DNA from: Apoderus coryli
Taxonomy: Eukaryota > Arthropoda > Insecta > Coleoptera > Attelabidae
NCBI GenBank assembly: GCA_911728435.2
Contig: OU452198.1
Span: 12,930,001-12,994,000, forward strand
Direction of reading: 5' to 3'
DNA length: 64,000 nt
This document shows positions 11,369 through 54,400 of this stretch, piece after piece. Below the pieces are notes generated by a model. That model saw only the letters and a list, made by a program, of their open reading frames with translations. It did not search any database and was not told where the DNA came from. Made by a program: the position numbers and the translations under genes. Position 1 is the first letter of the stretch; each line of letters begins with the position of its first letter.

Positions 11369-11372
11369 CTTT

Positions 11373-11616
11373 TGTAAAATAAATCACGAAAAAATATTAA
11401 ATAACACAATAATTCTTTTATTAAATGTAACAAACATTAGTAGTACACACAATAATATCATTTTTGTAGTAATCATAATTTTAACTCGCCACCGACTGTA
11501 GAGTGATTTCAACGATGGTATATATGCTAATCCGCTGCGCGTTAATTCATACCACAACTTACTTTTCGCCGGGATAGCATTTTTTCATGTGAGTCATACC
11601 TAGATATTTTCTTACA
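11373..11616 (-). repeat. 3' LTR of the gypsy element
   Basis: This is the downstream LTR in the sense of transcription. On the minus strand it carries a TATA-like GCATATATACC (11517-11527) and a polyadenylation signal AATAAAAG (11415-11422), so U3, R and U5 are all plausible within 244 bp. The sequence just upstream on the minus strand (11617-11640) is only moderately purine-rich, so a polypurine tract is not obvious. Confidence 0.95.
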
Positions 11617-11797: not shown

Positions 11798-14700
11798 TTA
11801 ACCCGCTATTTTACTACTCATGCAATTAACCTGAGGATCCTCATCGTTTGAAAGACATTCCACTTCGGAATCAGAGCTAACTTTTACGTTATAAAGCTTC
11901 AATTTGTCAAGGGATACGATTCCCTTGTACTTGGTTTTCGATCTGGAAGAACCCTTTAAATCTTCCACAACGTAGCGATCATGATCTAAGATTTTCGTAA
12001 TCTCGTAAGGCCCACTATACTTTGGCAATAACTTTTTGCTTCGGCCTTGATTTGTCGTAGCGTACGTACGCACTAACACTTTGTCACCCTTTCTATAAGT
12101 GCGGCCTGCACATCTGCGTTTATCGTATGACGCTTTGCGTTCCTTTTGCTTAGCGTCTATAGTAGACTTTGCCCTGGCTCGTACAGTTGCTAAGTCTCTA
12201 TCGTTTGCAGATGCCGCCACGTCATTATCTAATAATGAATTCGCCACACTTCGTGGCAAATATCCAAACATTAGTTCGTATGGTGACTTTCCAGTGGATG
12301 AATTCGTCGTAGAATTCAATCCCCAACGTATTTTAGGAATGGCTTCGTCCCACCTTTGCTCGTCATCCGTTGACGCAGCCAAGGATGCTAATATTGTGCG
12401 ATTATATCGCTCTACTTGTCCGTTTGCTCGGGGAGTAGCAGTAGCATTCAAAATGTGCTTGACGTTCAAGCTCTCACAAAATTCGTCGAATTTCTTGCTT
12501 GTATAACATGAACCTCGGTCGGAAATAATCCGTCGTGGAATTCCAAAATTTTCTATGACAGTTTCAAGAAAACGTATCACCGGTAATGTTCTTGTGGACG
12601 GAACGGCTTTCATAAACACGAATTTTGTAAAAGCATCAACAATCACGATTAAATACATATTCTTCTTTTTCGATTTAACAAATGGTCCTAAGTGATCGAT
12701 ATGTATCGTGTCGAATGGAACTGAAATCTTTTCAATTGGATGCAGGTATCCAGCTTTTCTACCACTTGGTTCTTTGTTATATAAACACGGCAGACAACAA
12801 GACAAATAACTTTTCAGGTATTTGCGCATTTTAGGAAACCAATAGTTTTTCGAAATTAAAGATATTGTTTTATCAAGACCCATGTGTCCTCCTCCGTCAT
12901 GAAAATGCATAACTACTTGACGTCTGGCACCTTTGGGAACAACCCACTTTTTACCATCCTCAGTATTTTTGTAAAGCCGATTGTTCAAAAGACTAAATTC
13001 CTTGTGAATTTGCTTTTCTTCTTTGTCTGTTGGATCCTTAGATAAAACATCAATGACATATTTGCATCTTGAATCTGTAGATTGTGCACTTAAGACCCAA
13101 TCTTCTTGGTTAATATTTACTAAGTTTACTGACACCAAAGAGTCACCAATTGGATTTCGGCTCAGTGCATCAGCATGTGCCATTTTGTGACCTGGTTTAT
13201 ACTCAATTTCAAAAGTATACTCTTGAATACTTAGCCACCACCTCCCAATTCGTGGAACTAGATCCCTCTTGGATAGTGTAGTACGCAAAGCATTACAATC
13301 GGTTACGACTTTAAATTCAATGCCGATAAGGTATATTCGAAAAGCTTTCAATGTATAAACCACAGCCATTGTTTCGAGTTCATATGAATGATATCTTTGT
13401 TCTTGTTTTGTGGTTTGCTTGGAATAGTACAATACAGGCCTAACGTTGCCAGCCTTTTGAGTTTGTAGAAGTATACCTCCAATTCCCCACTTTGAAGCAT
13501 CGGTATGTACTTCAGTTTTTAGCTCTGGGTCATATACAGCTAACACTGGTCGAGTAATCAGTTTCTCTTTTAGGGTATCGAAAGCTTTACGTTGTTCGCT
13601 ACCCCATGAGAACGTTATATCCTTTTTTGTTAGAGTTGTTAAAGGTTTTGCAATCGTAGCAAAATTTTTAATATATTTTCTAAAATAGCTAGTTAAACCC
13701 AGAAATTGTCTGACTGTCTTAATATCTGTTGGAACAGGAAATTTTTTAACAGCGGCGACTTTACTTTGGCCAGGCTGTACACCATGCTTGCTGATTTCAT
13801 GTCCCAAATATTCGATTTTTTCCATAAAAAATTGACATTTTGAGAGTCGAAGTGTCAAACCAGCATCTCGTATAGCTTGCAGAACATCACGTAGGTATTC
13901 TGTTGCTGAATGAAACCCTGTTGCAGGTATCAGAATATCATCCATATATGCCAAGGCCTTTCCGTAACGTAACGAGCCTAGAACTCTGTTTATTGTTCTC
14001 TGGAACACTGCTGGAGCATTACATAATCCAAAAGGTACACGAAGATATTCGTAATGGCCATCCGGCGTTACGAATGCTGTTTTTGATATTGACGATTTAT
14101 CTAGTTCGATCTGGTGGTAACCGCTAGCTAGATCAAGGCTAGTAAAATACTTACAGTCTTTTAGTTTTTCGAGAAATTCATCAACACGAGGTAACGGATA
14201 TCTGTCTTTTACAGTTTTTGAATTAAGAGCTCGATAGTCAACACACATACGTTGCTCGCCGTTTTTCTTTTTAACAAGTAAAATTGGACTAGCATATGGC
14301 GATTCCGATTCACGGATGATTCCGTTTTCCAGAAGATCATTAACTATACCTCTAACCACTTTCCGTTCGTTATAAGAGAGCCGGTATGGTCTATATACTA
14401 CAGGACTTTCATCGTTAAGCCGAATCGACATTTTTAAAATATCTGTTTTACCCAATTCACTAGTAGATTGTGCAAAACAGTCTGAGAATTCGTTTAAAAG
14501 CTTTAAAAGTTCATTTATTTGTTGGTCAGTTAGATTTTTATTAATAATAACATCGTTAGCAGTAAACCCAACAATTTTGTTATGTAAGTTTACTGATAAA
14601 CATTGAACAGACCTCTCTTCAAAACATGGTACTGACCTAGCAAGAATATTATGTGTACTTACAAGAATCTCTTTGGCAGATAAGTTGGACACAGCTACAA

Positions 14701-16240
14701 ATCCATTTTCGCTGTGCGTTACACAATCTTCGATAATGTGCTCTTTCCCAGGACAAAAACGTGAGCTTCTTTGCACATAAACATCACCTCCATATTCACC
14801 ACGTGACGTCACTGCTATTAAGGCCGTTGTTCTTGGAGTAATCACTGTTGAATTTTTCGCCCATAAAGGAATTTTAGCAGCAGGGAGGTCTAACGTTTGG
14901 CAAATATCGGCACTTGCATCCAAAAGTCGAACCTTTTCACCACACACAATTAACATTATGTTTTCATTATTTAAAAATGTTTGTCCGACTAAAACAGGAA
15001 TATCCTGAGCAGAGTCTGGAACAACGAAGGCATCTACTTCTAGCTCGGCCTCATCAACTTTTAGTTTGAAGTGTGTTTTTCCCAAAACTTTAATAGATGA
15101 ACCTCCGTAGCCCGATATAGTGGTTTTGCAAGGACTACATTTCAGTTTTCTTTCTTTGCACAGGCTATCTTGGATTAAAACTGCTCCGCAACCAGTATCA
15201 ACGTATGATTTAACAGGATTTCCATTTACTAGACATTCAAAAAAATATTCTTGGTGTGGTTCATACGATTCTACAATGTTGTTTTTCACATTTCGTCGAC
15301 ATTGATGTGCTTCATGACCCAAACGTTTGCAAACTGTACACTCAAGCTTAGGTTTTGGGCACTTTGTTGAGAAATGCCCAACTTCTCTACAATTATAACA
15401 TCGTTGCGGATTTTTATTGCCAGGTTTTTGAAGTTTTCGTGACGGTTCACCCAATCTATCACTTAGAGGTCTTTTTTTTATATACCTTACATCTTCTTCG
15501 AACTTTTTCTCCATTTGTGGTTTGACTTCTGGTCTTAAAGTGGACAAATACTCAGCATAGAGGGCATCTGGAGTTTCGTATCTACCTGCCATGGCAGCAG
15601 CCTGAATACTTTGGTCTTTGATACCATCTATAACGCAGGATACAGCCTTTTTTCCCACAATTTCACAAGCACCTATCAGTTCCATTTTATCAAAATAATA
15701 TCGGGACCATGATTCGTGTGGTAACTTAAATCGATTTACTAATGCTCGAAGGGTTGATGCGAAATTATGGTGCTCTGGAAATGACCGCAACAATAGTTCC
15801 TTCCATTGTGTCCATGTCATTTGGTATGACGGTAAATTATCATACCAACGTCGTGCGAGACCACCTAGTCTACTTTGCATTAAAAATATTGTTGTTTGTT
15901 CATCCCAGTTATTGATTTTACTCAGTTGTTCAATTTTGTCAATCCACTTACTGGAACTCAGGTTAGGATTTCCGGGGGTAAATTCTGGAATACAATCTGG
16001 CTTCGCGAACACACGACGAGTTTCAGGTTGTGAATCAACTTGGTGTCGGATTAATTTTTCGACCAAATTTTCTAACCTTGAGACTTTGTCAGACCTCGGT
16101 GGTGTATAAGAGCGTTTACTCGTTGACGGTAATGAGCGCGATTTTTTTCTAGGAGTTGTGTGATGCTTAGAGCGTTTGTAATTACCATCCGAGCTCGAAG
16201 ATGAGCTTGAACCTGACGACGAGGATCGCGAACGTCCCAT
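11798..16240 (-). CDS. Gag-Pol polyprotein of the gypsy element
   Basis: A single uninterrupted frame of 1480 residues encodes everything needed for retrotransposition. The N-terminus is Arg/Ser-rich with a run of serines (about residues 4-18). Gag follows, with two CCHC zinc knuckles at about 281-314. The aspartic protease has DTG at 348-350. Reverse transcriptase covers about 600-790 with YMDD at 765-768, then RNase H (HTDAS near 912, ELET near 954, DALSR near 1024). Integrase has an H2C2 zinc finger at about 1112-1153 and the triad D1182, D1241, E1277, with 35 residues between the last two. A basic C-terminal domain lies near 1370-1450. Gag and Pol share one frame with no frameshift site, so relative dosage must be set some other way. 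The start at 16240 is the first Met of the frame. All catalytic motifs look intact. Confidence 0.97.
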   Translation of the reverse strand: MGRSRSSSSGSSSSSSSDGNYKRSKHHTTPRKKSRSLPSTSKRSYTPPRSDKVSRLENLVEKLIRHQVDSQPETRRVFAKPDCIPEFTPGNPNLSSSKWIDKIEQLSKINNWDEQTTIFLMQSRLGGLARRWYDNLPSYQMTWTQWKELLLRSFPEHHNFASTLRALVNRFKLPHESWSRYYFDKMELIGACEIVGKKAVSCVIDGIKDQSIQAAAMAGRYETPDALYAEYLSTLRPEVKPQMEKKFEEDVRYIKKRPLSDRLGEPSRKLQKPGNKNPQRCYNCREVGHFSTKCPKPKLECTVCKRLGHEAHQCRRNVKNNIVESYEPHQEYFFECLVNGNPVKSYVDTGCGAVLIQDSLCKERKLKCSPCKTTISGYGGSSIKVLGKTHFKLKVDEAELEVDAFVVPDSAQDIPVLVGQTFLNNENIMLIVCGEKVRLLDASADICQTLDLPAAKIPLWAKNSTVITPRTTALIAVTSRGEYGGDVYVQRSSRFCPGKEHIIEDCVTHSENGFVAVSNLSAKEILVSTHNILARSVPCFEERSVQCLSVNLHNKIVGFTANDVIINKNLTDQQINELLKLLNEFSDCFAQSTSELGKTDILKMSIRLNDESPVVYRPYRLSYNERKVVRGIVNDLLENGIIRESESPYASPILLVKKKNGEQRMCVDYRALNSKTVKDRYPLPRVDEFLEKLKDCKYFTSLDLASGYHQIELDKSSISKTAFVTPDGHYEYLRVPFGLCNAPAVFQRTINRVLGSLRYGKALAYMDDILIPATGFHSATEYLRDVLQAIRDAGLTLRLSKCQFFMEKIEYLGHEISKHGVQPGQSKVAAVKKFPVPTDIKTVRQFLGLTSYFRKYIKNFATIAKPLTTLTKKDITFSWGSEQRKAFDTLKEKLITRPVLAVYDPELKTEVHTDASKWGIGGILLQTQKAGNVRPVLYYSKQTTKQEQRYHSYELETMAVVYTLKAFRIYLIGIEFKVVTDCNALRTTLSKRDLVPRIGRWWLSIQEYTFEIEYKPGHKMAHADALSRNPIGDSLVSVNLVNINQEDWVLSAQSTDSRCKYVIDVLSKDPTDKEEKQIHKEFSLLNNRLYKNTEDGKKWVVPKGARRQVVMHFHDGGGHMGLDKTISLISKNYWFPKMRKYLKSYLSCCLPCLYNKEPSGRKAGYLHPIEKISVPFDTIHIDHLGPFVKSKKKNMYLIVIVDAFTKFVFMKAVPSTRTLPVIRFLETVIENFGIPRRIISDRGSCYTSKKFDEFCESLNVKHILNATATPRANGQVERYNRTILASLAASTDDEQRWDEAIPKIRWGLNSTTNSSTGKSPYELMFGYLPRSVANSLLDNDVAASANDRDLATVRARAKSTIDAKQKERKASYDKRRCAGRTYRKGDKVLVRTYATTNQGRSKKLLPKYSGPYEITKILDHDRYVVEDLKGSSRSKTKYKGIVSLDKLKLYNVKVSSDSEVECLSNDEDPQVNCMSSKIAG

Positions 16241-16805: not shown

Positions 16806-16817
16806 CCACCGCTGCTT
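16806..16817 (-). promoter_or_regulatory. tRNA primer-binding site, tRNA-Leu-like
   Basis: Next to the 5' LTR the minus strand reads AA then GCAGCGGTGG. The plus-strand CCACCGCTGC equals the 3' acceptor/T-arm end of animal tRNA-Leu of the UAG/AAG type, which ends CCACCGCTGCCA. Ten of twelve positions match; the two nearest the LTR do not. This suggests priming by tRNA-Leu. The tRNA ending is recalled knowledge, not searched. Confidence 0.6.
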
Positions 16818-17061
16818 TGTAAAATAAATCACGAAAAAATATTAAATAACACAATAATTCTTTTATTAAATGTAACAAACATTAGTAGTACACACAATAA
16901 TATCATTTTTGTAGTAATCATAATTTTAACTCGCCACCGACTGTAGAGTGATTTCAACGATGGTATATATGCTAATCCGTTGCGCGTTAATTCATACCAC
17001 AACTTACTTTTCGCCGGGATAGCATTTTTTCATGTGAGTCATACCTAGATATTTTCTTACA
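16818..17061 (-). repeat. 5' LTR of the gypsy element
   Basis: The upstream LTR in transcript orientation is identical to the other by eye except for one base (T instead of C within CCGTTGCGCG). It carries the same TATA-like box (16962-16972, minus strand) and AATAAAAG (16860-16867). Transcription would start inside it and run leftward. Confidence 0.95.
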
Positions 17062-25840: not shown

Positions 25841-25891
25841 GAACACTAAACTAAAACTCGATTTACCACTTAACCAAAACACTCTTTTTTA

Positions 25892-25939
25892 TTCTCGACA
25901 TACGTTTCGATAACAATGTTAGCATCCTCAGCAGAGAAT
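25892..25939 (-). ncRNA. Hammerhead ribozyme motif 3, imperfect
   Basis: On the minus strand the core CUGAGGA (fits CUGANGA) is followed by an unpaired U, then stem II GCUAAC/GUUAUC with one mismatch, then GAAAC. Stem III would be AC/GU around loop GUAU with C at the cleavage position, a classic GUC site. Stem I can pair UUCUC upstream with GAGAA downstream, but two extra bases (UG) lie between stem I and the core. The main catalytic bases are intact; the stem I bulge makes activity uncertain. Confidence 0.5.
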
Positions 25940-25944
25940 TAAAA

Positions 25945-25992
25945 CTCAGGATGCTAACATTGTTAGCGAAACGCGCGACGCGCATGAAAAAA
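25945..25992 (+). ncRNA. Hammerhead ribozyme motif 4, core-damaged partner
   Basis: The plus strand repeats the previous motif in opposite orientation. Stem II is perfect here (GCUAAC/GUUAGC) and GAAAC is intact. The core reads CUCAGGA, so the G of CUGANGA is replaced by C, which should abolish cleavage. It shows that the two arms have diverged in complementary ways: the left kept the core and the right kept the stem. Confidence 0.45.
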
Positions 25993-26199
25993 GTGTTTTG
26001 GTGAAGTGGTAAAACGTGTTTTAGTTTAATCAATAAACTTTGTGATATTATAGAAACACACAAACTGATCTGAACTAACAACAAGCTAAACACGAATACT
26101 AACGATCTGTCAGTGTCAACTTGCTTATTTCAAATGGAGCACCGTATATATTAATAAAGTCTTCGATTCTACGTAAAATTTCAATTAGAACTATGTCTA

Positions 26200-33440: not shown

Positions 33441-33930
33441 TTTGTGATTCCGATTTACTATGTAGACTATATATACGATATATACGAGTATGCAATCAGT
33501 GGCGGTTGGTGGGCACGTGCCCTACCTAAAAAATGAAGTAGAAAATATAATTTTCGATTTTATACTTCGCACCAGACCAGTGTGATTTCGCTAGAATTCC
33601 CTATAAAATTTTGCATTTGAAAATTGGAATCGAAGACGGCCCTCTCTATGCTATAGTGACTCTTGCAGCGCGTCTATTCACGGTAATGAAACAGAACGTA
33701 GGTCTTAGTACATACTACGATGCTCTTGGACACAACATTTTTGTGCCTCTATTGTTTTCTTTGCTTTGCTTCGCGAAAATGGTGCATTTTAGAGGGTATG
33801 TTAATAGAAACTTTTTTCCATATTTTTGGACGGGCTCTCGCATCCTAAAGTCCTGCGCATATATTATGAAACACCCTGTATATCTACTGTGCTTAAATGC
33901 AGGCCGATACTGTAGATGGGCAACGACTAT
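33441..33930. other. Unassigned stretch with transposon-end signatures
   Basis: CAGTGGCGGTTGGTGGGCAC at 33497-33516 looks like the terminus of a hAT-type element (CAGNGGCG ends), and GAAACACCCTGTATATC near 33870 like the end of a CAGGGTG foldback; neither partner end was found. The 126-codon open frame at 33611-33991 spans this junction and resembles no protein I know. Confidence 0.35.
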
Positions 33931-35835
33931 TAGACCAGGGTCGATAATTTTAAAAATGGTAAAAAGTGAAAAAAAAATTATAGTAGGATGATACCCATTG
34001 GAAAACGTTGAGAATATAACAAAAATGAAAGGAAAAATAAATTACGGGCGATCTGAGGTCGGGGAGGGGGTGAGTTTTTAAGGGTAAAAAACGGTTAATC
34101 TCGATTTCCGGTAAAACTGCAAGTCCTATGTAAAAAAGTTAAATAGCAAAGTTGTAGGTAATAAAAAGATCTACAACTTTTGTATCGACACTTTTTTCAC
34201 ATAACCTCAAAATTTATGTGAAAAATTCGAATAACAGAGTTTTTGGTTTTTTATTTTTATCTTTTGCAAAAAAAATTTATTTTTGCACGAAATCTGGTGA
34301 AAACTTACCTTTGTATATCCCAAACATACAATAATTTTTTTGATTTAAAATATTCATTTTTTCACCTTATTTTGACTTAATATCGAAAAAGCACCCTAAT
34401 TTTCAATCGAAAATATCTGCTTTTTAAAAAAGTTGATGTGTTTTTTGTTCGTTGAAATCTCTACTTTCTGAGGGTATAAAAAAATATATACACTACTATG
34501 GTAAATGTTCTCAGAAAATGGAAATAATGAAAAAAACTCGAATCCGAATTTTTTTTTTCTAATTACTTCTCCATTAGTTTTTGTCTCTTTGATGGCATTT
34601 CTTCGTCGTTAGATTCGACAAACCTTCCCGATTCTAGTAGATTTTCGAAATCTTCAAGACCATCACCGTCTTCGTCTCCAAGATTATTTCCGGTCTGCAT
34701 TGGTTCTTCATGCACAATTTCATCTGAATCATCATCTTCCTCGTAGGTTTTTTCTTCCACATTGAAGCATGTTTCAGAACCATGACAATTTGAGCATTTT
34801 AAACCATGTTTTCGGCGCGTTGATGTTGCTTCCAGCCCCAATCTGTTGCTGTCAGTTCGTTACCCAGCCAAGTCTGAAGCTGATAATATGCCCTGTAACA
34901 ATGTTGTTCTGCTGCACCTTCTGTGAGTGGGAGATTGGCCAATATGAAAGAAGATTTAATTCTTGTCAATTGATATTTTTGAAATCTTAATTGGTTCAGT
35001 GTTATATCATTTTTACATTTATTAATAGATTTGATTAATTGTAATCGATTTTTTTTTATATCTTCTTTGTTCGCATCTTTTTTATAAAAAATATTGGCCA
35101 AATTTGACACATTTTTATCGGCGAATAAAGAGTTCAGGATACTTTTCTTTCCTTTTCTAGCAAATCCAGATGTTGTATCGCAACCAGAAAAACAATGGAG
35201 AAATGCAACGATATTTTTTAAGGATTCATATTTGAAACTATTAGATTATTATTTGCATTTTCTGAGAACATTTACTATAGTAGTGTATATTGTTTTTATA
35301 CCATTAGAAAGTAGAGATTTCAACGAACAAAAAACACACAAACTTTTTTAAAAAGCAGATATTTTGACCTGAGAATTTTCGATCGAAAATTAGGGTGTTT
35401 TTTCCATATTAAGTCAAAATAAGGTGAAAAATAAATATTTTAAATCAAAAAAATTACTGTGTGTTTGGGACATACAAAGGTAAGTTTTCACCAAATTTCG
35501 TGAAAAAATAAAAATTTTTGCAAAAGATAAAAATAAAAAACCAAAAACTCGGTTATTCGTATTTTTCACATAAATTTTAAGGTTATGTGAAAAAAATGTC
35601 AATACAAAAGTTGTAGATCTTTTTATTACCTACAACTTTGCCATTTAACTTTTTTTCATAGGACTTGCTGTTTTACCGAAAATCGAGATTAACCGGTTTT
35701 TACCCTTAAAAACTCACCCCCTCCCCCTTCCCGACCTCAGATCGCCCGTAATTTATTTTTCCTTTCATTTTTGTTATATTCTCTACCTTTTCCAATGGGT
35801 ATCATCCTACTATATTTTTTTTTGGTCTCAAAAAT
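33931..35835 (-). mobile_element. Long-TIR element A, copy 1
   Basis: Arms of roughly 600 bases (about 33985-34560 and 35225-35825) are reverse complements. Markers such as ATTACGGGCGATCTGAGGTC, AAAACTGCAAGTCCTATG and AAAGTTGTAGGTAATAAAAA lie in both, in opposite orientation. The left end begins near AGACCAGGGTCGATAATTTT. The same end is found reversed at the right of copy 2 (54380-54400), whereas the right end of copy 1 is cut short. The 650-bp centre encodes a broken protein on the minus strand. Element class is not established. The coding part is of a type seen in many repetitive insect proteins. Confidence 0.82.
34563..35225 (-). pseudogene. GCDTTS/WLGN-type transposon-associated protein, fragment
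   Basis: On the minus strand the centre of element A reads FLHCFSGCDTTSGFARKGKK, then a linker with SILNSLFADKNVSNLANIF. ANLPLTEGAAEQHCYRAYYQ and LQTWLGNELTATDWGWKQ follow, and after a frame change RRKHGLKCSNCHGSE and an acidic tail (YEEDDDSDEIVHEEP). The chain GCDTTS, then AAxQHxYRxYxQxQxWLGN, then a Cys-rich end is familiar from a repetitive insect protein group whose function is undetermined. The Cys-rich end here is shortened. I infer that it is the C-terminal part of the element's own protein. The N-terminal part is missing, so arms this long have replaced most of the gene. Confidence 0.65.
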
Positions 35836-35847
35836 GATCTATCGATA

Positions 35848-35897
35848 TGGTACTCTGACGAACTCTTAATAAGAGCGAAACGAATTCGTCAGTATCG
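35848..35897 (+). ncRNA. Hammerhead ribozyme motif 5, type I with GUC site
   Basis: This is the most complete copy. Stem I strand UGGUACU precedes core CUGACGA (CUGANGA). Stem II is CUCUU/AAGAG with loop AAU, closed by an unpaired A and C next to the cores. GAAAC follows, and stem III is the palindrome ACGAAUUCGU. Cleavage falls after C of GUC at 35890. The return strand AGUAUCG pairs with UGGUACU over seven positions (five Watson-Crick, two G-U). It begins about a dozen bases after the truncated right arm of element A. RNA cleaved here would start at 35891. Confidence 0.75.
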
Positions 35898-37085
35898 GTC
35901 GACCCATGCCTCGGTCTGGTTCTACTGAATTAGACTGAGGCCCTGCTAAATTAAGTCCCTTGTGTAGGTAACACCAGTAATTTTGTCCGCAATGCCACGA
36001 AATTATTGTTCATTTTATTATATTTTAAAGCGAGGTTTGACATGACAAATTTCTTAAGTAACCTTTGGAACATGGCATCTTGGCCAACGATATTGTGGCT
36101 TTGGTAAAAAATTAGTAAAACAGCTATTTGCTGTAAATTGGGACGGGCGAATACTAAAAATTAAGGTATACTCGCTAATTACATCATCAAATTTATCAAA
36201 TTTATTTATCTCATAGAACCACATATGTATCTACCTATCATAAATACGTTGTTGTTTTTCTTCGTTAATTTACGCAATTTATGACCATGATATTACAACA
36301 GATGATTATATACAGAAAACGAGAAAAAAATTATTTAATATCTTTATTCCTGAATCTTCAATCTTTATTATCTTCACATTAAGCAACAAAGTAACAATGG
36401 AGGAAGAGCATATAATAATAAAATTGAAACGAATAATAATAGAGGCTATTATTTTTACTTTTATATTACTCTTCATATTTGTATTCTTTGTAATTAGGTA
36501 TGAGTTCAAAAGAAACTTTTCTTGTATTGACTAAATTCCCTTTTTTATTAAAAATTGTAAACCGTAATTGAAAATGTAAGTGAAATGTCATAAGACCGAT
36601 TTTTGAGAAATTAATTAAATATAATTATTAGGTAGCACTCTAACAAGACTTAAAGATAATTTTCCTTTAAATATTATGTTAATTTTAGAAAACAAATTAA
36701 ATTTTTACGGGCTGTGTCCGAAACCAGGAGAATTTGGAGATGTTTGGAGACAAGAGATTAGACAATTATACTAAATTTGAGATTAAAATATTAACATAGA
36801 TAAAAGATAAATCATATCAAGGCGCATTGAAATAATATACCGTCAAAGCAAGATTGCATACAAAAAGTATCAAATTTAACTGATATGATAAAATCAAATG
36901 GGACACACCATGATTAAGAGCATACAAGATAATGGATGGATTGAAGGAAATTCGTTAGTGGAAGACCAAATAAAAGTGGAGTTCTATTTGCTAATTTTAA
37001 AAGTGATATGTTGATCTTACACTGAACCGAAAAGGTACGTGATATTAATAAAAAAGTGCTTCAAATCAATGAACGTCAACATTAA
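35898..37085. other. Sequence downstream of hammerhead 5; no gene recognised
   Basis: 35900-36130 has higher complexity (CGACCCATGCCTCGGTCTGG, CCTGCTAAATTAAGTCCC). It would be the 5' part of any transcript released by the ribozyme, but it contains no open frame of note. The rest is AT-rich and unassigned. Confidence 0.4.
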
Positions 37086-37087
37086 AT

Positions 37088-37535
37088 TTGAGCCGATGAT
37101 GGGTGACATTAATACAATAACCGTTCGTACATTAATTCGGTAGCGAATTCTGTACGTTGATTTAATAAATAAAGAACATAAATTTATGCTCGCCGGTTAT
37201 TGATCTTACGAATGATGGACATTAATTTATAACCTCTGTACATTAAACCGATGTTAGCAGGTTGTTAAGGTTACGAACGATGAAGATTAGTTTATGTCTC
37301 CAATACGTAAAACCGATGTTAGCTGGTTATTAATATTACGAACGATGAACATTAATCTATGATTTTTGTACATTAAACCGATGTCAGCTGGTTATTAATG
37401 TTACGAACGATGAACATTAATCTATGATTTTTGTACATTAAACCGATGTCAGCTGGTTATTAATGTTACGAACAATAAACATGAATCTATGACTATGGTA
37501 CGTTAAACCAATGTTAGCTGATGATTACATTGGGT
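37088..37535. repeat. Minisatellite, 65-bp unit, about 6 copies
   Basis: The landmark AAACCGATGT recurs with exact 65-base spacing (CCG at 37248, 37313, 37378, 37443, then CCA at 37508). Each unit reads roughly ACCGATGTCAGCTGGTTATT, then AATGTTACGAACGATGAACA, then TTAATCTATGATTTTTGTAC. The two central units (37378-37507) are nearly identical. Units on the left decay progressively to about 37090. A tandem repeat of this period is independent of the transposons around it. Confidence 0.85.
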
Positions 37536-40872: not shown

Positions 40873-41379
40873 TTAGTGACAGCGCGTTTGGGTTACCGTT
40901 TGGGTTTGAGACCAGATTAGAACCGAAATGGTACGGAAAGCTACACTACCGCAAGCAGTAACGTAACGGTTAATAACGAAATACGGAGACACCAAAATCT
41001 CCAGTAAAAGGTTATTAACACAAACGAATTCATTACCGAAACCTATTCCAACGACAAACTCATTAATCAAGACCCTCATTCTGGACTCAACACTATAGTC
41101 TACCTCTTTTGCCAAGAAACGAATATGGTTAGCATTTTTAAAATTCACCAAATCATTAGCGACACAGTAAGTTTGCATTTCTTCCAAACACGCACGACCT
41201 TTAGTAATTAAATCCTGAATATTATCAGCGGATATAACAACTGAGATATCGTCGGCAAAAAGCGATATATGTTTAGCAGATTTTATTTGAGCAGATATAT
41301 CCGAAATAAGTAAAATGAAAATCAACGGCACTGCCCTGAGGGACGCCATCGTCCAACTCAAGCACCGATGATCTAACAA
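40873..41379 (-). pseudogene. Second, different non-LTR RT fragment
   Basis: A 168-codon minus-strand frame carries ALRAVPLIFILLISDISAQI (degraded motif B), KHISLFADDISVVISADNI (motif C, FADD), and a thumb segment YCVANDLVNFKNANHIRFL. The thumb is already present here, and the neighbouring piece at 40512-40826 has its own thumb. So the two are parts of different elements lying head to tail, not one gene. The remaining C-terminal reading (40873-41090) contains no recognisable RT motif. Confidence 0.7.
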
Positions 41380-41687
41380 TGAGAAGAAATTCTACAAGAT
41401 GACGGCCCAATAAATCGAGGAACAGCTATTCTTACCAACTTTGTTAAAGTCTTAATAATTTTAGTTTAAAATGATATAAAAAACCACAACTCGATATCCC
41501 TTTGTAATGTTAATACCGACTGTAGCCGTCCATAGGCGCACCCTTTTAACTTTTCATAACAATACATGTCCTACGATATTTTAAAAATCTTTTATGTATT
41601 AACAATTGTATGTTCAAGAATTGCTTGTTACATAAAGCAACAAGACTTTAAGTTATGTTGGAAATTTGTTTTACACTACCATGCTTT

Positions 41688-41729
41688 CACCAGACGGCCG
41701 TTTCGTCGATCCACGACTGGTCAGTGGTG
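41688..41729 (-). ncRNA. Hammerhead ribozyme motif 6, core-damaged
   Basis: On the minus strand stem I CACCA/UGGUG is perfect. Stem II is GUCG/CGAC with loop UGGAU, placed directly against the cores as in canonical hammerheads. GAAAC, palindromic stem III ACGGCCGU and the GUC cleavage site are all present. The core reads CUGACCA, so the essential G of CUGANGA is C. This should be inactive, although every helix is intact. Confidence 0.6.
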
Positions 41730-41874
41730 ATCGGCAGGCAGTGTGACCCAAATTTACAAAGAGCTTATACGAGCACGAGAACTGATTGAGAGAGAGAGAG
41801 AGATGTTTTTTGATTCAATCAATTCTCGTGCTAGTATAAGCTCTTTGTAAATTTGGGTCACACTGCCTGCCGAT

Positions 41875-41916
41875 CACCACTGATCAGTCGTGGATCGACG
41901 AAACGGCCGCCTGGTG
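41875..41916 (+). ncRNA. Hammerhead ribozyme motif 7, core-damaged
   Basis: This is the mirror partner of the previous motif on the plus strand. Stem I CACCA/UGGUG and stem II GUCG/CGAC are intact. The core reads CUGAUCA (G to C, as in the partner), and the base before the cleavage position is C instead of U (GGCCGCC). Because both arms share the G-to-C change, it predates the inversion or was copied between the arms. Confidence 0.58.
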
Positions 41917-41992
41917 AAATCATGGTAGTGTGAAACAAATTTCCAACATAACTTAAAGTCTTGTTGCTTTATGTAACAAGCAATTCTTAAAT

Positions 41993-42690
41993 AAAGCCTC
42001 CCTGCTAGGGGATTCGGGCGCATCTAGTGTTGGCAATAGGATATAATGGAGTTGTTACTTCTTGTCCGGCCATCGTTTGTGACCTTTGTTTCACCCGGCA
42101 TATTGCCTGTTCACGCTAGGTGTCGCCAAAAACATCTCTCTCTCTCCCAATTGTATGTTCATTTGTATAAAAGTATACTGTATTTTTCCTTGCCGCTCCA
42201 ACACGGCAACATATAAACCTACGCTCAAAAAGACTGTTTTTGTTTTTAGAAGCTTAGACATAGATGCACACGTACCTAGTCTGTGTTCTACTAAAGGTAT
42301 GTTCCCTTTATAATAATTAAAACTATTGTTAATACTTGTTATGCATATAAGTAGATACATTTTTAATAATATGCTTGTGATATTATACAAACAACAAATT
42401 TTACTCACTTAGTCAGTAACATTTTCTATAGAACGTAAAAATTTTATAATATGTGTATCCGTCACTTCATTATTTTCAGAGCTTAACTGATGATAAATAT
42501 TTAAAAGAAGACGCTGGCTTTGCACACGTAAATTTTAATGCTTAAAATCCCAACGTGCTCCGCTCGTGTCGTATACTGGCCGTGTCTGATACAGTAACTG
42601 CAAAAAGTTTAATCCACTTAAGGTTTTATTAAAAATTATATCTAATTTGATAGATTTTCTTTCAATTTGTTAATCTAAGAAAAAGTATTG
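41993..42690. other. Unassigned stretch
   Basis: Overlapping frames on both strands at 42086-42408 show no known motif. TTTCACCCGGCATATTGCC near 42090 and CTCTCTCTCTCCC at 42137-42149 are the only notable words. No gene is called. Confidence 0.35.
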
Positions 42691-44438: not shown

Positions 44439-46860
44439 ATGTACTTACTAATTACCTGTCGAATGGTATTACAAAACCTGGTAGGTAGATTTGGACTGGG
44501 AGATCGTAATGAGCGAGGTGATCGCCTTGTACAATTTTGTCAAGAAAATAACTTTGTTGTGACAAATAACTTTTTTAAACTACCCAAGAGAAGACTATGC
44601 ACTTGGAAATCCCCAGCAGATGGACACTATGGGGCGATAGTCCGAAATCAAATAGATTACATTTTCATTAAAGAAAGGTATCGAAATGCGCTCAAATCGG
44701 TTAAAGCATATCCCGGTGCGGATGTTGGGTCAGACCATAATCCGCACACGAAGAAACTTAAAGAGGAGACCATTAAAGAAGTGTCCAACAAGCAATACAT
44801 TCCAACCTTGCGAAAGTTAACCCTGAATCCGAAGATATTGACAATCAATGGGAATCCCTCAAAACCTGCATTCTTTCCCCCTGCCAAGAGTTACTAGCAC
44901 CTTCTAAAAAGATAAATAAAGAATGGATTACCCAGGAAATTTTATTTCTGATGGACCAACGAAGGAAATACAAGAACAACGAAACAAAATATAGGGAAAC
45001 CCAGAAAAAGATAAGAACAAAAATAAGAGTAGCAAAAGAACGTTTCTATGAAGAAAAATGCAAGGAAATAGAAGAGCTACAACGCAGATTTGACTTGTAT
45101 AACCTACATAAGAAGATAAAAGAATTGGCAGGTCTCAGAAAAGGAAAGATTACTATAATACAATCCTCTTAGATAAAAATGGGAAAACACTATCAAATAC
45201 AGAAGACAAACTGAAGAGATGGCAGGAATATATAAAAGACCTTTTCGACGATGTGAGAAATATCACATCCGTAGCTAGGGTGGACTGGAAGACACAGGTC
45301 CCGAAATCACGAAGGACGAAGTCACCCACACACTAAACAACATGAGCAACGGTAAATCTCCTGGCCCCGACGGAATTCCTATCGACATTCTTAAGATCAT
45401 AAGTGAACAAGATATGGATGTCGTGGTGAGACTCTTGAACAGCGTCTATGAGTCTGGAAAACTACCAAAGGAATGGCTCTCATCAGTATTCATATATTTA
45501 CCGAAAAAATCGGGTGCAAAAGAGTGACCACCGTACCATAAGCCTCATGTCCCACACTTTGAAACTACTGTTAAAAATTATACTCAACCGCATCCACCAG
45601 AAACTCGATCTGGATATAAGTGACAGTCAGTTTGGCTTTCGCAAAGGATTAGGTACAAGAGAAGCACTATTCGCATGCAACGTAATAGTGCAGCGATGCC
45701 TAGATATTAATCAGGACGTATATGCTTGCTTCATCGACTATAATAAGGCGTTTGACAGGGTCCGCCACGACCAGTTGATGGAAATATTACAATGTAAAAA
45801 CCTAGACCACCAAGACCTGCAAATCATCTCAAATCTATATTACAACCAAAATGCCATCGTCAAAGTAGATCAACAAAATTCTGGCACCATCTCAATAAAG
45901 AGAGGTGTATGTCAAGGTTGTGTTCTGTCACCTATTTTGTTTAATGCCTACTCTGAAGAGATTCTAAAAAGGGCAATTGAAAATGACAGTGCAGGAATAA
46001 AAGTAAATGGAGTGCCTATAGTTGTTCTAAGATACGTTGATGATACCGTAATTTTAACGAAAAACCTGGAAGATCTACAAAGAATCATGGACAAACTTGT
46101 TCGATATAGCGAAGAACCAACGAAGGAAATACAAGAACAACGTAAACAAAACAAAGTTCATGAAAATAACAAAGAAGGCCCAGACTAACAACGAACAGAT
46201 AATCGTCAAAGGTGAACCCATCGAACAGGTAGAGAAGTATACTTATCTTGGAACAACAGTTACTTGTAATAACGACTACACGAAAGAAATAAAAGCACGC
46301 ATAGAAATAGCAAGGTCCAATTTCAATAGCATGAAAAGAGTTTTGTGCAATAGAGGTATAAGCCTAAAACTGAGACTGAGACTAGTTAGATGTTATGTTT
46401 TTGCCACTCTGCTTTATGGCGTCGAGGCATGGACTCTGAACGCAGAAATAACCAAAAGACTAGAAGCTTTTGAAATGTGGGTGTACAGAAGAGTACTGAA
46501 GGTGTCATGGGTCGATCGGATAACTAACTTAGAAATACTTGAGCGACTAAACATAGAAAGAGAGTTGTTAATAACAATTAAAAGCAGATAACTGCAGTAT
46601 CTCGGCCATGTGACTCGTGGACCAAGATACGCCTTACTTCAATTGATAATGCAGGGAAGGATCCAAGGTACAAGAAGCGTGGGTAGAAGAAGGATATCCT
46701 GGTTGAGAAACTTGAGAGAGTGGTTTGGATGTTCCTCGATAGAGCTTTTTAGAGCAGCTGCATCCAAAATAAGAATTGCCATGATGATCGCCAATCTTCG
46801 TCGCGGAGATGGCACCTAGAGAGAGAGAGAGATAGGCAAGTCTGCGCGTTTTGGCAGAAA
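44439..46860 (+). pseudogene. RTE-type non-LTR retrotransposon, near-complete coding region, frameshifted
   Basis: Starting inside the endonuclease, the element shows GRFGLGDRNERGDRLVQFCQ, RNQIDYIFIKERY and GSDHNP, the C-terminal motifs of an APE-type endonuclease (44439-44765). A lysine-rich linker (44951-45172) follows. NGKSPGPDGIPIDILK and the RT fingers come next (45342-45520), then motif A ACFIDYNKAFDRVRHDQLME, motif B KRGVCQGCVLSPILFNAYSE and motif C VVLRYVDDTVILT (45448-46090). The thumb and long C-terminal region contain KYTYLGTTVTCNN, RRVLKVSWVDRITNLEILE and QYLGHVTRG (46097-46819). This order is that of RTE/BovB-type elements. About four frameshifts or stops (near 44800, 45175, 45525, 46110 and 46590) disable it. 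The endonuclease N-terminus is missing. Confidence 0.88.
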
Positions 46861-48682: not shown

Positions 48683-48803
48683 ACCTAATTTCGAGAGTTT
48701 GTCTGTCAACCAGCATACTTTAACCAGACGGCCGTTTCGTCGATCCACGAGTCATCAGTGGTGATCGGTCAGTGGTTGACAGACAAACTCTCTAAATTCG
48801 GTG
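48683..48803. repeat. Hairpin with hammerhead motif in its loop
   Basis: Arms of about 30 bases, GAGAGTTTGTCTGTCAACC (48693-48711) and GGTTGACAGACAAACTCTC (48774-48792), are exact reverse complements, and the match continues outward with a few mismatches. The loop holds the hammerhead motif on the minus strand. A stretch with GGCGACATCTAGTTTCTGTT follows at 48846, as in the region after the 41.6 kb palindrome. Confidence 0.8.
48722..48763 (-). ncRNA. Hammerhead ribozyme motif 8, intact core
   Basis: On the minus strand the parts are stem I strand CACCA, intact core CUGAUGA, stem II UCG/CGA with loop UGGAU flanked by an unpaired C on each side, GAAAC, palindromic stem III ACGGCCGU, cleavage site GUC, and return strand UGGUU (four of five bases pair with ACCA). 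It belongs to the same family as the two core-damaged motifs at 41.7-41.9 kb. Here the core is intact, but the first stem II pair is lost (C-C instead of G-C). Confidence 0.7.
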
Positions 48804-50046
48804 GTATATACTCCACACGGTACAGAGATGTAAAAGTATGTGTTTGGCGACATCTAGTTTCTGTTGGTAATATCCTGAGTGAGCAACCATTCACTATATC
48901 GACTGCGCGAGAGGTCACTGACTCCATCATTCATTTAAAATGTTTATATGTTGTATTTTAAATGGGACAAATAAAGTTAAATCATGGTTGTTTTCCCGAA
49001 CACCTACATAAATTGGGAATAAAAGACACTCCTCATTGTGACTGTGTAAATATACAGACAAATATCAGGTAAGTGCCGAACAACATGTTTAGCCAAACAT
49101 TGAATCAATAATTTAAAATCAAGAAATTTTTTAAATTTACAACCGGAGTTTCAGCTGCCGAATATATCTTGTGCAAATTTTTATTGCATTCTATAGACTA
49201 GAAATAAATGAAGTATAGGTACTTTGGTGGAAGATTTACTAACTTCGGCTGGATTAATTATTGGTAATTAACAGTGATACATTTTTTCAATAGTTATCAA
49301 AATATTCGGTAGTAGATACTTGATGGTTTTTTATACGGTTCATGGTCAAGTAAATGTAAGAATAATTATATATCAGAAGTAGTCCATCTTACTGTATAGA
49401 TACTAACTACTATAATGTTATTTAAACTTTATAATTTTTTTTGATAAAGAAAAAGAAACACAGTAAACACAATGTAATTCCTAAACATATAAAATAATAT
49501 TTTTATTCCATATATCGTCGATGGTAAACTACCACTTGTTGTTCGACTAAAAGTTGTTGAAGAATTTTATTGAGTTTATTTAAAATAGTAAAATTGAACA
49601 CTTTTTAACCACACAAAAGTAAATTTTATCTGCAGAAAGGCCGTGTAGTGCAAAATAATTCGTTTATGTCAAATTATGCCACATTTACATAGTTTCACAG
49701 TTTAGGACAGTATATTTTTAAAACAATTTTTTTATTTTTAATATGTAAAAGATTGTATTCCGCGGAAGAAAATTTTGACATGATATTAACAATTGGTGAA
49801 TGTTTTTCAAATTGTCTATTAGCATCCAGAGTATATCCCCAGAAATTCTCACACCGGAGACACCCTGATACCAAAGCGCTTGCAAATTTCCATTACTACG
49901 ATACCTAGAATAACCATTAGTTTCGGACTCATTGTGGAGTGTTAACGTTTTTGGTGAAATAGTCAGAGATATCATGATTGGGCCATATTTCTTTGACGGT
50001 CATTTACATGGAGATAAATTCTAACGATTTTAAAAGAGTTTATAAC
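48804..50046. other. About 1.2 kb without recognisable genes
   Basis: An 85-codon minus-strand frame at 49718-49975 has no motif I recognise. The sequence is otherwise AT-rich and unassigned. Confidence 0.35.
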
Positions 50047-50399
50047 GGTAAAAAACTGTTAATCTCGATTTCCGGTAAAACTGCAAGTCCTATGAAAAAA
50101 AGTTAAATAGCAAAGTTGTAGGCAATAAAAGGATCTACAACTTTTCTATCGACACTTTTTTCTTATAACCTCAAAATGTATGTGAAAATTTTTTTTTGGT
50201 TTTTTATTTGTATCTTTTGCAAAATTTTTTATTTTTTCAAGAAATTTGGTGAAAACTTACCTTTGTATGTCCCAAACATACAGTAATTTTTTTGATTTAA
50301 AATATTCATTTTTTCACCTTATTTTGACTTAATATGGAAAAAGCACCCTAATTTTCAATCGAAAATTCTCACGTCAAAATATCTGCTTTTTTATCAAAG

Positions 50400-51115
50400 T
50401 TGGTGTGTTTTTTGTTCGTTGAAATATCTACTTTCCGATGGTATAAAAAGATATACACTACTATAAATAATGAAAAAAACTCGAATCCGAAATTTTTTCC
50501 TTCCCGATTCTACTGGATCTTCGAAATCTTCAAGACCATCACCGTCTGCGTCTCCAAGATTATTTCCGGTCTGCATTGATTCTTCATTCACAATTTCATC
50601 TGAATCAGCAACTTCCTCGTAGGTTTTTTCTTCCACATTGGAGCATGTTTCAGAACCATGACAATTTGAGCATAAATTTGTGCATTTTAAACCATGTATT
50701 CGGCGCGTTTATGTTGCTTCCAGCCCCAATCTGTTGCTGTCAGTTCGTTACCCAGCCAAGTCTGAAGCTGATAATATGCCCTGAACAATGTTGTTCTGCT
50801 GCAACTTATGTGGGTGGGAGATTGGCCAATATGAAAGAAGATTTAATTCTTGCCAATTGATATTTTTGAAATCTTAATTGGTTCAGTATTATATCATTTT
50901 TACATTTATTAATAGATTTGGTTATTTGTAATCCATTTTTTTTATCTTCTTTGTTCGCATCTTTTTTATAAAAAATATTGGCCAAATTTGAGACATTTTT
51001 ATCGGCTAATAAAGAGTTAACGATCCTTCTCTTTCCTTTTCCGGCAAATCCAGATGTTGTATCGCAACCAAAAAAATAATGGAAAAATGCAACGATATTT
51101 TTTAAGGATTCATAT
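50400..51115 (-). pseudogene. GCDTTS/WLGN-type protein, second broken copy
   Basis: This is the minus-strand centre of copy 2. The Cys and acidic tail (TYEEVADSDEIVNEES) lies at 50590-50640, and the AYYQLQTWLGNELTATDWGW region is near 50735-50790 with a lost base in the CYRA part (the copy 1 sequence has one more base). The nuclear part with ANIFYKKDANKED lies near 50960-51000. The GCDTTS block near 51060 reads FFGCDTTSG. The same fragment of the gene is present as in copy 1, so the deletion of its N-terminal part happened before both copies spread. Confidence 0.6.
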
Positions 51116-51770
51116 TTGAAACTATTAGATCATTATTTGCATTTTCTAAAAACATTTACCATAGTAGTGTATATTTTTTTTTATACCATCAGAAAGTAGA
51201 GATTTCAACGACCAAAAAACACACCAACTTTTTTAAAAAAGCAGATATTTTGACGAGAGAATTTTCGATTGAAAATTAGGGTGCTTTTTCGATATTAAGT
51301 CAAAATAAGGTGAAAAAATGAATATTTTAAAGCAAACAAATTACTTTATACAGGGTGTCCTACGGTGGCAACCCATTAGATTATTTCAGAAACTACTATT
51401 GAATTTTGAAAATTTCAGTGTCTATATTGTCAAATATGCTCTACTCAAATAATATAATAGCAACGGCATAGCACTTCCGGTTATACCGGAAGTTGATGGC
51501 AACTTTATTATTTTAAATGGAACTCCCTATATATTATTACATTTTTGGATTCTAAATAAGAGTTCAGACATATTTCATGTATCATGTCTTATACCAAACG
51601 TCAGTCGTTTTTGACTTATATCAAAATTTATGTCAAAATTTAGAGTTTAGGGCTCCATAAGAATTCCGTTTTTTCCTTGTAAATCAGTATTTAATAATTA
51701 TTTTGCAGGTATTTTCTTATCAGGTGGGATCTTCTTTTTCGAATTGACAACACATTTTCTGATTAGTTTA

Positions 51771-53750
51771 TACAGGGTGGTCAAAAAATTATATTGAAAA
51801 CGGTTCAAGAAAAACAGTTGAAAGTCAATTTTTTCAAATAGAATGGGTATATTGTTATTATTTTATCTTCCTTAGCATTAAAAAATACTGCAATTTTGTA
51901 ATAGGTTATCATTTTCTAAAATGCATAGTTTTCGAAATATCGTCATTTTAAATTTTTCTGCAGCACCTACCGTTGTCTCTCTCGAACCTAGCTAATTAAT
52001 TTAGTTAGCCATGAAAATAATGACATTTCTCTGAATTAGCATAAACGTCAAACTAAATATGAAATTAGTTGTTGCTATCCAACCAGTCGTTATTGATCAA
52101 TATTTGTGACCATTATATTTTACAATAACTATTACAAAATGGAAAATATTTATTCATATGCTGATATTGTAAATGTATTATTAATCCATGGAGAATGTAA
52201 CAAAGTGATTAATAGAACCTGTAGAGTATTTAACGAGAGAAACCCGCATTTGCCAACAATGACTAGAGAAAAATTAAGAAGAATTTTGAGAAATCAAATA
52301 TACGGTGGGGGCAGTGTCATGCAAATAGAGTACTACAAAAACCTGTAACTACAGATGAGGATAATGTGGTAAATGTTTTGGCATATTTTAATTCATATCC
52401 TGAATCATCAGTGCGTGCTGCTGAACAAGATCTAGGAATTTCAAAATCCTCTGTCCAAAAAATATTAAAAAATAGTGGTTTACATCCATTTAAATTCAAA
52501 TATCTTTGTGCTCTGGAAGCAGGTGATGCCGAACGACATGTACGGTTCTGCGAAACCATTTTAACATGAACGCAAGAAGATCCTGGGTTTCTGCAAAAAG
52601 CGATTTGGACAGATGAGTCGAAATTGTCCAGAGATGAAATCGTTAATAAACAAAATAGTCATTTTTGGGCTTCTGAGAATCCGCACGCTATTCGTGAATG
52701 AAATTTTCAAAATAAATTTAGTGTGAACGTTTTTTGTATGGTGAAAGACACACATGTTGAATATTTTATTTACGAGCATAATTTAAATACGGAAGGTTAT
52801 CTTTATATTTTGCAAAATGTTGTGGCGCATTTTTTGGATGATCTACCATTAAATGAATTAAGAAGTTGTTGGTTCCAGGTAGATGGAGCACCACCTCACT
52901 GTGTTTGAAGATCGATGGATCAGACGTTTAAGGCCTTGGGATTGGCCAACGAGATCTCCAGATCTATCACCGCTGGATTTTTATGTTTGGGGTGCAATTA
53001 AACAAAAGGTGTATTCTACCCCAATTAATTCAAAAGAAGAATTAGTAGGACGCATCCGAACTTCATTCGAAGCCTTACCTGGAGTCCAAATTGCACGAGC
53101 TGTCACGAGTGAATTTATTGAAAGGGTAAATAAGTGTTTAAGAGTAAATGGGGGTCATATCGAACAATTAAATTAGTTTTGTTATCGTTAGTTGATTAAC
53201 TTTTTTTAGATGAAAATTTATTTAGTTTAATCTTCTGTTCATTTCTGCTGTATTATTTTAAATTTTAGTCTTAGTTCGTTGTAATACTTGATTTGTATAC
53301 CTCCCAACCTGCTCTAAACGATTTCTCAAAATTATTCCTAATTTCTCTAGTCATCGTTAGCAAATGGGGGTTTCTCTCGTAAAATACTCTACAGGCGATA
53401 TTAATCACTTTATTTTATTCTCCATGAATTAATAATAAATTTATAATATCAGTAAATATTTTTCATTTTTATTAATTTGACGTATAGTTTGACGTTAAAA
53501 TGACAATAATTTCATGGCTAACTAAATTAATTAGCTAGCTTCCAGAGAGACAACGGTAGACGCTGCAGAAAAAAAATGACGATATTTCGAAAACTATGCA
53601 TTTTAGAAAATGATAACCTATTACAAAATTGCATTATTTTTTAATGCTAAGGAAGATAAAATAATAATAAAATACCCATTCCATTTGAAAAAATTGACTT
53701 TCAACTGTTTTTCTTAAACCGTTTTCAATATAATTTTTGACCACCCTGTA
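51771..53750 (+). mobile_element. TIR transposon C with transposase, nested in B
   Basis: TACAGGGTGGTCAAAAAATT at the left is mirrored by AATTTTTGACCACCCTGTA at the right, with TA on both sides. The inverted repeats extend about 300 bases (AACGGTTCAAGAAAAACAGT, CGTTGTCTCTC and similar). The centre, on the plus strand, encodes a broken IS630/Tc1/mariner-superfamily transposase. At 1,980 bp with a recognisable gene it is the most complete autonomous-type member among the CAGGGTGG-ended elements in the window. Confidence 0.88.
52106..53176 (+). pseudogene. IS630/Tc1/mariner-superfamily transposase of element C, broken
   Basis: Blocks in order: an N-terminal helical region (52139-52345, start MENIYSYADIV); a linker, then helix-turn-helix RAAEQDLGISKSSVQKILKN (52400-52480); the first catalytic region KAIWTDESKLS near 52600; the segment FSVNVFCMVKDTHVEYF; the second Asp in CWFQVDGAPPH near 52880; and, after a deletion and frame change, WPTRSPDLSPLDFYVWGAIK with the third acidic residue, ending NGGHIEQLN and a stop at 53174. 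Stops or shifts occur near 52346, 52568, 52700 and 52906. The subfamily cannot be fixed, because the spacing between the second and third acidic residues is disturbed by the deletion. Confidence 0.8.
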
Positions 53751-54400
53751 TAAACTAATCAGGAAATGTCTTGTCAATTCGAAGAAGAAGATCTCACCTG
53801 ATAAGAAAATACCTGAAAAATAATTATTAAATACTGATTTACAAGGAAAAAACGGAATTCTTATGGAGCCCTAAACTGTCAATTTTGACATAAATCTTGA
53901 TATAAGTCAAAAACGACTGACGTTAGGTATAGGACATGATACATGAAATATGTCTGAAATCTTATTTAGAATCCAAAAATGTAATAATATACAGGGTGTT
54001 CTATTTAAAATAACAAAGTTGCCATCAACTTCCGGTATAAGCGGAAGTGCTATGCCGTTGCTATTATATTATTTGAGTAGAGCATATTTGACAATATAGA
54101 CACTGAAATTTTCAAAATTCAATTCGAAGTAGTTTCTGAAATAATCTAATGGGTTGCCACCGTAGGACACCCTGTATACCTACAACTTTGTCATTTAACT
54201 TTTTTTCATAGGACTTGCAGTTTTACCGGAAATCGAGATTTTTTACACTTAAAAACCCCCCCCCCCCTCCCCCTTGCCGACCTCAGATCGCCCGTAATTA
54301 ATTTTTCCTTTCATTTTTGTTATATTCTCTACCTTTTCCAATGGGTATCATCCTACTATAATTTTTTTTGGTCTCAAAAATTATCGACCCTGGTCTACTA

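Follow-up and report, generated by a model that had tools for sequence, protein, structure and literature searches.

A transposon-interrupted hammerhead in Apoderus coryli, probably a decayed copy of a retrozyme-like repeat with Penelope-like footprints

Positions 35848–35897 of the 64,000-nucleotide stretch of the Apoderus coryli genome analysed here (contig OU452198.1, positions 12,930,001 to 12,994,000, forward strand; referred to below as the window) read as a hammerhead ribozyme, which raises the questions of whether this copy is intact and what kind of element carried it there. An earlier note had described it as a complete type I hammerhead, built on the minimal plan of Penelope-like elements (PLEs) and perhaps still able to cleave, most likely as a dimer. 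Our analysis favours, with a probability of roughly 0.68, the view that the copy is decayed and interrupted by a transposon, and that it belongs to a non-coding retroelement of retrozyme-like kind, termed family A, that was spread by PLE enzymes. The flagged copy is thereby corrected to a fossil, and the full hammerhead is kept in other family A copies.

The window copy and the transposon inside it

Re-reading the sequence showed that the letters and coordinates reported for the hammerhead are correct. The copy has the core CUGANGA, GAAA, UH, helices II and III and the open-ended helix I of type I hammerheads, with a cleavage site predicted after 35890, and it lacks an intact 10.1–11.1 pair and a continuous stem I. 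The features of this locus were read from the sequence, with the alignment of family A copies as a further basis for stem II:

33877–33930 (+): 5' part of the window copy of family A, unit positions 299–353, ending in GGGCAACGACTAT; 94.5% over 55 columns
33931 to ~35845 (no strand): transposon with long inverted repeats, ~1.9 kb, inserted in stem I
35842–35846 with 35898–35902 (+): replacement outer stem I of five pairs, TCGAT with GTCGA, which arose at the transposon junction
35846–36025 (+): 3' part of the window copy, unit positions 351–533, with the short 3' end that lacks a tail
35848–35854 with 35891–35897: stem I as previously drawn, pairs T.G, G-C, G.T, T-A, A-T, C-G, T-A
35851–35854 with 35891–35894 (+): proximal stem I, TACT/AGTA
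35855–35861 (+): hammerhead core CTGACGA, C7 variant
35862–35876 (+): stem II, ACTCTTAATAAGAGC, five-pair CTCTT/AAGAG
35877–35890 (+): GAAAC (35877–35881), ten-base palindromic stem III ACGAATTCGT (35880–35889) and GTC (35888–35890)

The transposon entered at the internal loop of stem I. Its inverted repeats (33969–34528 and 35248–35823, ~575 bp) are 90.9% alike, and its right border can be placed only to within a few bases. Beyond it the family A copy restarts at 35846 with TATGGTACT, and the two pieces join at unit positions 353/351, with TAT common to both. By eye, no target duplication was seen around the window copy. Pieces related to this transposon also lie near 50036–52028 and 53498–54385.

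Within stem I, only TACT/AGTA (4 bp) and loop letters are original, the 5' strand of the outer stem having been cut off. The 10.1–11.1 pair, which adjoins the core, is A.C (35862/35876) through a change of G10.1 to A. Because of this mismatch, the transposon-cut stem I and Rfam scores below gathering, the description of the hammerhead as complete does not hold; the mismatch and the split stem also weaken the suggestion that it may still cleave. The copy is probably inactive or weak and represents ordinary decay of a family A repeat.

Searches with Rfam found no model at gathering score at 35848–35897 or elsewhere in the window, and with E allowed up to 10, none of the 11 matches in the full window is a hammerhead. 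In a 601-base stretch around the copy, the best hammerhead match is HH9 (RF02275), at 15.3 bits versus a gathering score of 52. The covariance-model search that had been proposed as a check thus returned no match above threshold, which counts against the original reading; however, this threshold is not decisive for family A, because intact copies also score only 20.6–21.6 bits versus the same 52 (six loci searched, with four HH9 matches in three of them: two in L004 and one each in L015 and L022). In L018, L024 and L001, there was no HH9 match at E up to 1. Family A shares with HH9 the core and the three-helix plan, at scores of 15.3–21.6 bits. A comparison of the window with a phage collection gave no match.

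Two hammerhead families

In a search of the genome (428 Mb, 129 contigs), 40 of the 2813 first-look candidates were scored and yielded 54 matches, which share sharp borders at window positions 35846 and ~36025. Extending the 30 best matches to loci, leaving out the window itself and merging two locus pairs placed the repeat of the window copy at 27 other places. Family A is a non-coding multicopy repeat with a type I hammerhead and a unit of about 480–525 bp. Its loci were fetched with a query that spanned the hammerhead and the 3' part but little of the 5' part.

We aligned 27 of 42 hammerhead placements, leaving out truncated or duplicate ones. The window copy scores 75.1 bits against the resulting model R1, its own row being among the 27 from which R1 was built. 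The family A fold has a stem I of GGG/CCC and CGAC/GTCG followed by an internal loop and TACT/AGTA, a 4-bp stem II (GCTC-ATAATAA-GAGC) and a 3-bp stem III (ACG-AAUU-CGU). Most aligned copies keep this fold, with standard pairs in 94.4% of pair cells and stem III paired in 91% of cells, and every catalytic letter is kept in 34 of 47 family A arms. At 10.1–11.1, 22 of 26 distinct aligned rows have G-C, one (L028) has a compensated A-U pair and three are unpaired, among them the window copy and L014, which carries the same G10.1 to A change. Covariation inside the family A alignment did not exceed shuffles, which is normal among recent copies; the evidence for the structure therefore comes from the core of the hammerhead and from a second family, described below.

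Divergence outside CpG sites is 2.4% in the hammerhead (68/2782 letters), versus 8.0% in the upstream 5' part (349/4388) and 3.4% (97/2813) and then 6.2% (170/2753) downstream; given the composition of the query, the comparison with the 3' part is the fair one. With CpG sites counted, the hammerhead stands at 3.1%, versus 8.2% on the 5' side and 3.5% and 6.3% on the 3' side, and its edge over the next 60 bases (3.1% versus 3.5%) is therefore small.

The pattern CTGANGA-gap-GAAAC-gap-GTC has three matches in the window where 0.13 were expected, a number reached in 0 of 100 shuffles. Two of them read as hammerheads, at 35855 (+) and 48727 (−). The third, at 25897–25931 (−), has no stem II by eye and lies within a palindrome, and we rejected it as chance; the palindrome that contains it is imperfect and spans 25847–26028. 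The match at 48727 belongs to a family of different sequence, termed family B, which occurs in the window as follows:

41609–41993 (no strand): palindrome of ~380 bp; each arm carries a family B hammerhead, and the two are head-to-head
48727–48758 (−): family B hammerhead, CTGATGA..GAAACGGCCGTC, with C.C as its 10.1–11.1 pair

Around the second of these, the family B copy at 48687–48798 (−) forms a ~20 bp perfect extended stem I. Its best hammerhead match is Hammerhead_1 (RF00163), with which family B has in common the core and the three-helix plan, at 18.7 bits versus a gathering score of 34. In the palindrome, G8 is changed to C in both arms and U16.1 is also changed in the right arm. Elsewhere, the family B copy in L049 has a compensatory stem II change (GTTG/CAAC versus GTCG/CGAC), and that in L033 a G.U variant. 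With two hammerhead families in 64 kb, hammerheads may well be abundant in this genome.

We calculated nearest-neighbour energies for family A RNA, whose stem III is able to close within a single strand. The dimeric hammerhead comes to −39.4 kcal/mol, versus 2 × −13.8 kcal/mol for monomers, and the non-hammerhead minima are lower, at −52.4 kcal/mol for the dimer and −23.9 kcal/mol for the monomer; for the family A consensus, the hammerhead fold lies ~10 kcal/mol above the minimum, in energies that leave out tertiary contacts. The GACGA of the core is fully complementary to the UCGUC of the cleavage site, and in a 525-nt circle of the unit found in L018 and L044, which has its own stem I change, the two pair with a calculated nearest-neighbour probability of 0.98–1.0. 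This predicted pairing may lock the ribozyme, or it may be an artefact of the energy model.

It could be argued that hammerhead-like letters arose by chance in AT-rich repeat DNA and have no ribozyme function, as the lack of an Rfam match at gathering score and the calculated preference for pairing the core with the cleavage site would allow. We regard this as very improbable in view of the excess of pattern matches over expectation, the presence in the window of family B, whose hammerhead differs in sequence, the compensatory change in L049 and the position of the hammerhead as the least diverged part outside CpG sites.

Arrangement of family A in the genome

We mapped the L018/L044 unit on 33 loci, the window excluded, clustered pieces less than 130 bases apart and dropped two clusters under 100 bases, which left 36 clusters. 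Half of these (18/36) are head-to-head, in which a minus arm precedes a plus arm, with the 5' ends fused and the 3' ends pointing outward, a share that is inflated because the ten-kb loci L031–L050 were partly chosen for showing paired matches; none (0/36) is tail-to-tail. Among the 27 places derived from the 30 best matches, which were not picked for pairing, a hand count gave 11 head-to-head arrangements. The remaining clusters are 15 single copies and three plain tandems (L044, L045 and L050). Head-to-head and tandem joints are both present in L031 and L039, and a double-minus cluster in L014 is one split copy, not a tandem. Tandem (head-to-tail) units, a minority of the layouts, are spaced about 480–525 bp apart; an array at L031:4979–5826 has a spacing of ~290 bp, below the length of the unit.

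The 3' ends fall into two groups ~30 nt apart: of 56 ends, a number that includes joints within tandems, 26 are short (unit 515–534), 29 are long (545–575) and one lies between. An extra AC-rich stretch, ACGGACACAAATTC, distinguishes the longer ends, and we refer to it as the tail. Both outer 3' ends could be mapped in 13 of the 18 head-to-head clusters, and by hand count ten of these combine one long and one short end, an asymmetry that is weak (10/13, one-sided p about 0.05 versus 50%). The other three have both ends short (L034), both long (the second pair of L033) or unclear (the first pair of L033).

Flanking sequences were compared in windows that take in eight element letters per side. 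Exact shared flanks of at least 12 bp, corresponding to target duplications of 12–14 bp, occur in 4 of 36 clusters (L035, L037, L039 and L048, all head-to-head), versus 3 of 1254 mismatched flank pairs. Lowering the limit to at least 9 bp gives 6 of 36, again all head-to-head, versus 27 of 1254, and one of these six, the first pair of L033, has a repeat that is not flush with the element ends. Duplications of at least 12 bp are absent from 14 of the 18 head-to-head clusters, and none of at least 9 bp was found in the 15 single and three tandem clusters. The 20 bases past the 3' ends are 75.5% AT, versus a locus mean of 66.8% (55 ends).

Penelope-like enzymes and competing origins

Animal retrozymes and PLE hammerheads are both already known. 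Passages of Cervera and de la Pena (2020, PMC7229834) describe animal non-LTR retrozymes, reported for insects among others, that resemble family A in being non-coding, of low GC and present in many copies, some in tandem, with type I hammerheads. The family A unit of about 480–525 bp (290-bp spacing in one array) differs from the 150–450 bp typical there, and family A copies are often head-to-head whereas the word 'inverted' appears 0 times in the main text of that paper on retrozymes. Its Discussion names PLEs as a strong candidate for moving animal retrozymes.

Family A has several traits in common with PLEs bearing hammerheads in their pseudo-LTRs (pLTRs), as these are described in parts of PMC11167929, PMC3846280 and PMC7761336: head-to-head inverted copies, an optional tail of ~30 nt, short target duplications, AT-rich flanks and a type I hammerhead. 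Unlike those elements, family A has no ORF, its hammerhead combines a 3-bp stem III with a longer stem I, and its tail does not begin an ORF. The account in PMC3846280 includes PLEs with a 31-bp tail optionally on one inverted pLTR, a 9-bp target duplication and mostly head-to-head repeats, and sections of PMC11167929 report a PLE that extends both strands and initiates at two internal sites, which lie next to each other and match its tail. The footprints of family A, namely two 3' start sites, head-to-head joins and target duplications, match this published structure and biochemistry, and their joint occurrence in one genome bears on the proposal that PLEs move retrozymes. The link to Penelope-like biology drawn in the earlier note thus stands for the family, more through its integration pattern (head-to-head repeats, the optional ~30-nt 3' tail and a short target duplication) and less through the shape of the ribozyme: minimal PLE hammerheads, in the portions of PMC7761336 that treat them, lack helix III or loop-loop contacts, whereas in family A stem III is present, with three pairs closed by an AAUU loop, and stem I contains an internal loop, so the minimal plan does not fit. 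Family A carries an unusually legible PLE signature. Among the papers listed in literature searches, which covered a minority of subscription papers, no title or abstract opening describes head-to-head retrozymes with PLE tails.

The following course of events would produce these footprints. Transcripts of tandem copies would cleave themselves after GTC into unit-length RNAs, perhaps then circularised; a circular stage is suggested by the tandem copies and by the work on other animals set out in parts of PMC7229834. A PLE reverse transcriptase/GIY-YIG endonuclease, which would act in trans because the family A unit examined has no ORF above 61 aa, would cut AT-rich DNA, and cDNA synthesis would start at either of two sites within the RNA, one that leaves out the AC-rich tail and one that includes it. 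If both target strands are extended, two cDNAs, each truncated at its 5' end, would join head-to-head, and the result would be a palindromic insert with a single duplication. We put forward only tentatively, and with some doubt, the specific proposal that the retrozymes here are mobilised by PLE enzymes priming both target strands, that one integration inserts two cDNAs head-to-head, one from the tail site and one from the inner site, and that a GACGA-UCGUC lock could keep the RNA circle closed until PLE protein binds. In sections of PMC11167929, mutating the hammerhead left in vitro insertion unaffected, and the cleavage site showed no RNA ends, results that argue against cleavage as a needed step.

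As to the source of the enzyme, a GIY-YIG-like motif, searched for with a motif pattern, was absent from 360 kb of partly overlapping loci sequence, and no PLE gene was found there; the family A unit examined does not have the ORF with reverse transcriptase and GIY-YIG domains that marks a PLE. Two reverse transcriptases in the window (45448–46188 and 40873–41379) were considered as a PLE source and rejected, having only Pfam RVT_1 matches or NCBIfam matches below cut-off and no GIY-YIG-like motif; they may be LINE-type.

Family A might instead consist of solo pLTR fragments derived from a single autonomous PLE that has its full copies outside the loci sampled, in which case neither a separate retrozyme nor a circular RNA stage would exist. 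The tail and target duplication signature would be the same, and PLE pLTRs bear hammerheads and occur solo or inverted, as parts of PMC7761336 and PMC3846280 relate. In the tandems of L044 and L050, however, the tail is joined to the non-coding start of the next unit and not to an ORF, the L044 unit has no ORF above 61 aa and the family A hammerhead is not the minimal PLE form, so that we consider this origin somewhat unlikely. A different question concerns one step only, the formation of the head-to-head pairs, which could come from snap-back (self-priming) of a cDNA rather than from priming on two target strands. Snap-back was proposed, and favoured, for Penelope elements of Adineta in the pertinent part of PMC3846280, and the family B palindrome with its same G8 change in both arms is in keeping with it. 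It should, however, put the same 3' end in both arms, and 10 of 13 pairs differ. Variants shared between arms, compared in 16 of the 18 head-to-head clusters (arms under 55 bases dropped), are mixed between snap-back and independent templates: among the 15 pairs that overlap, nine share at least one variant, with many in some (L031, the first pair of L033, L036 and L040), and six, including L032 and L043, share none and have 6–26 unshared differences. We judge snap-back unlikely as the source of these pairs.

The window holds other repeats as well. A tandem array with a 65-bp period lies at 37186–37527, and a single ORF of 1480 aa at 11798–16240 (−) contains protease, reverse transcriptase, RNase H and integrase domains, in an order that we take to be Gypsy-like. 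It is flanked by 246-bp repeats that are 99.6% alike (11371–11616 and 16816–17061), and the ORF and these repeats are probably a young LTR element.
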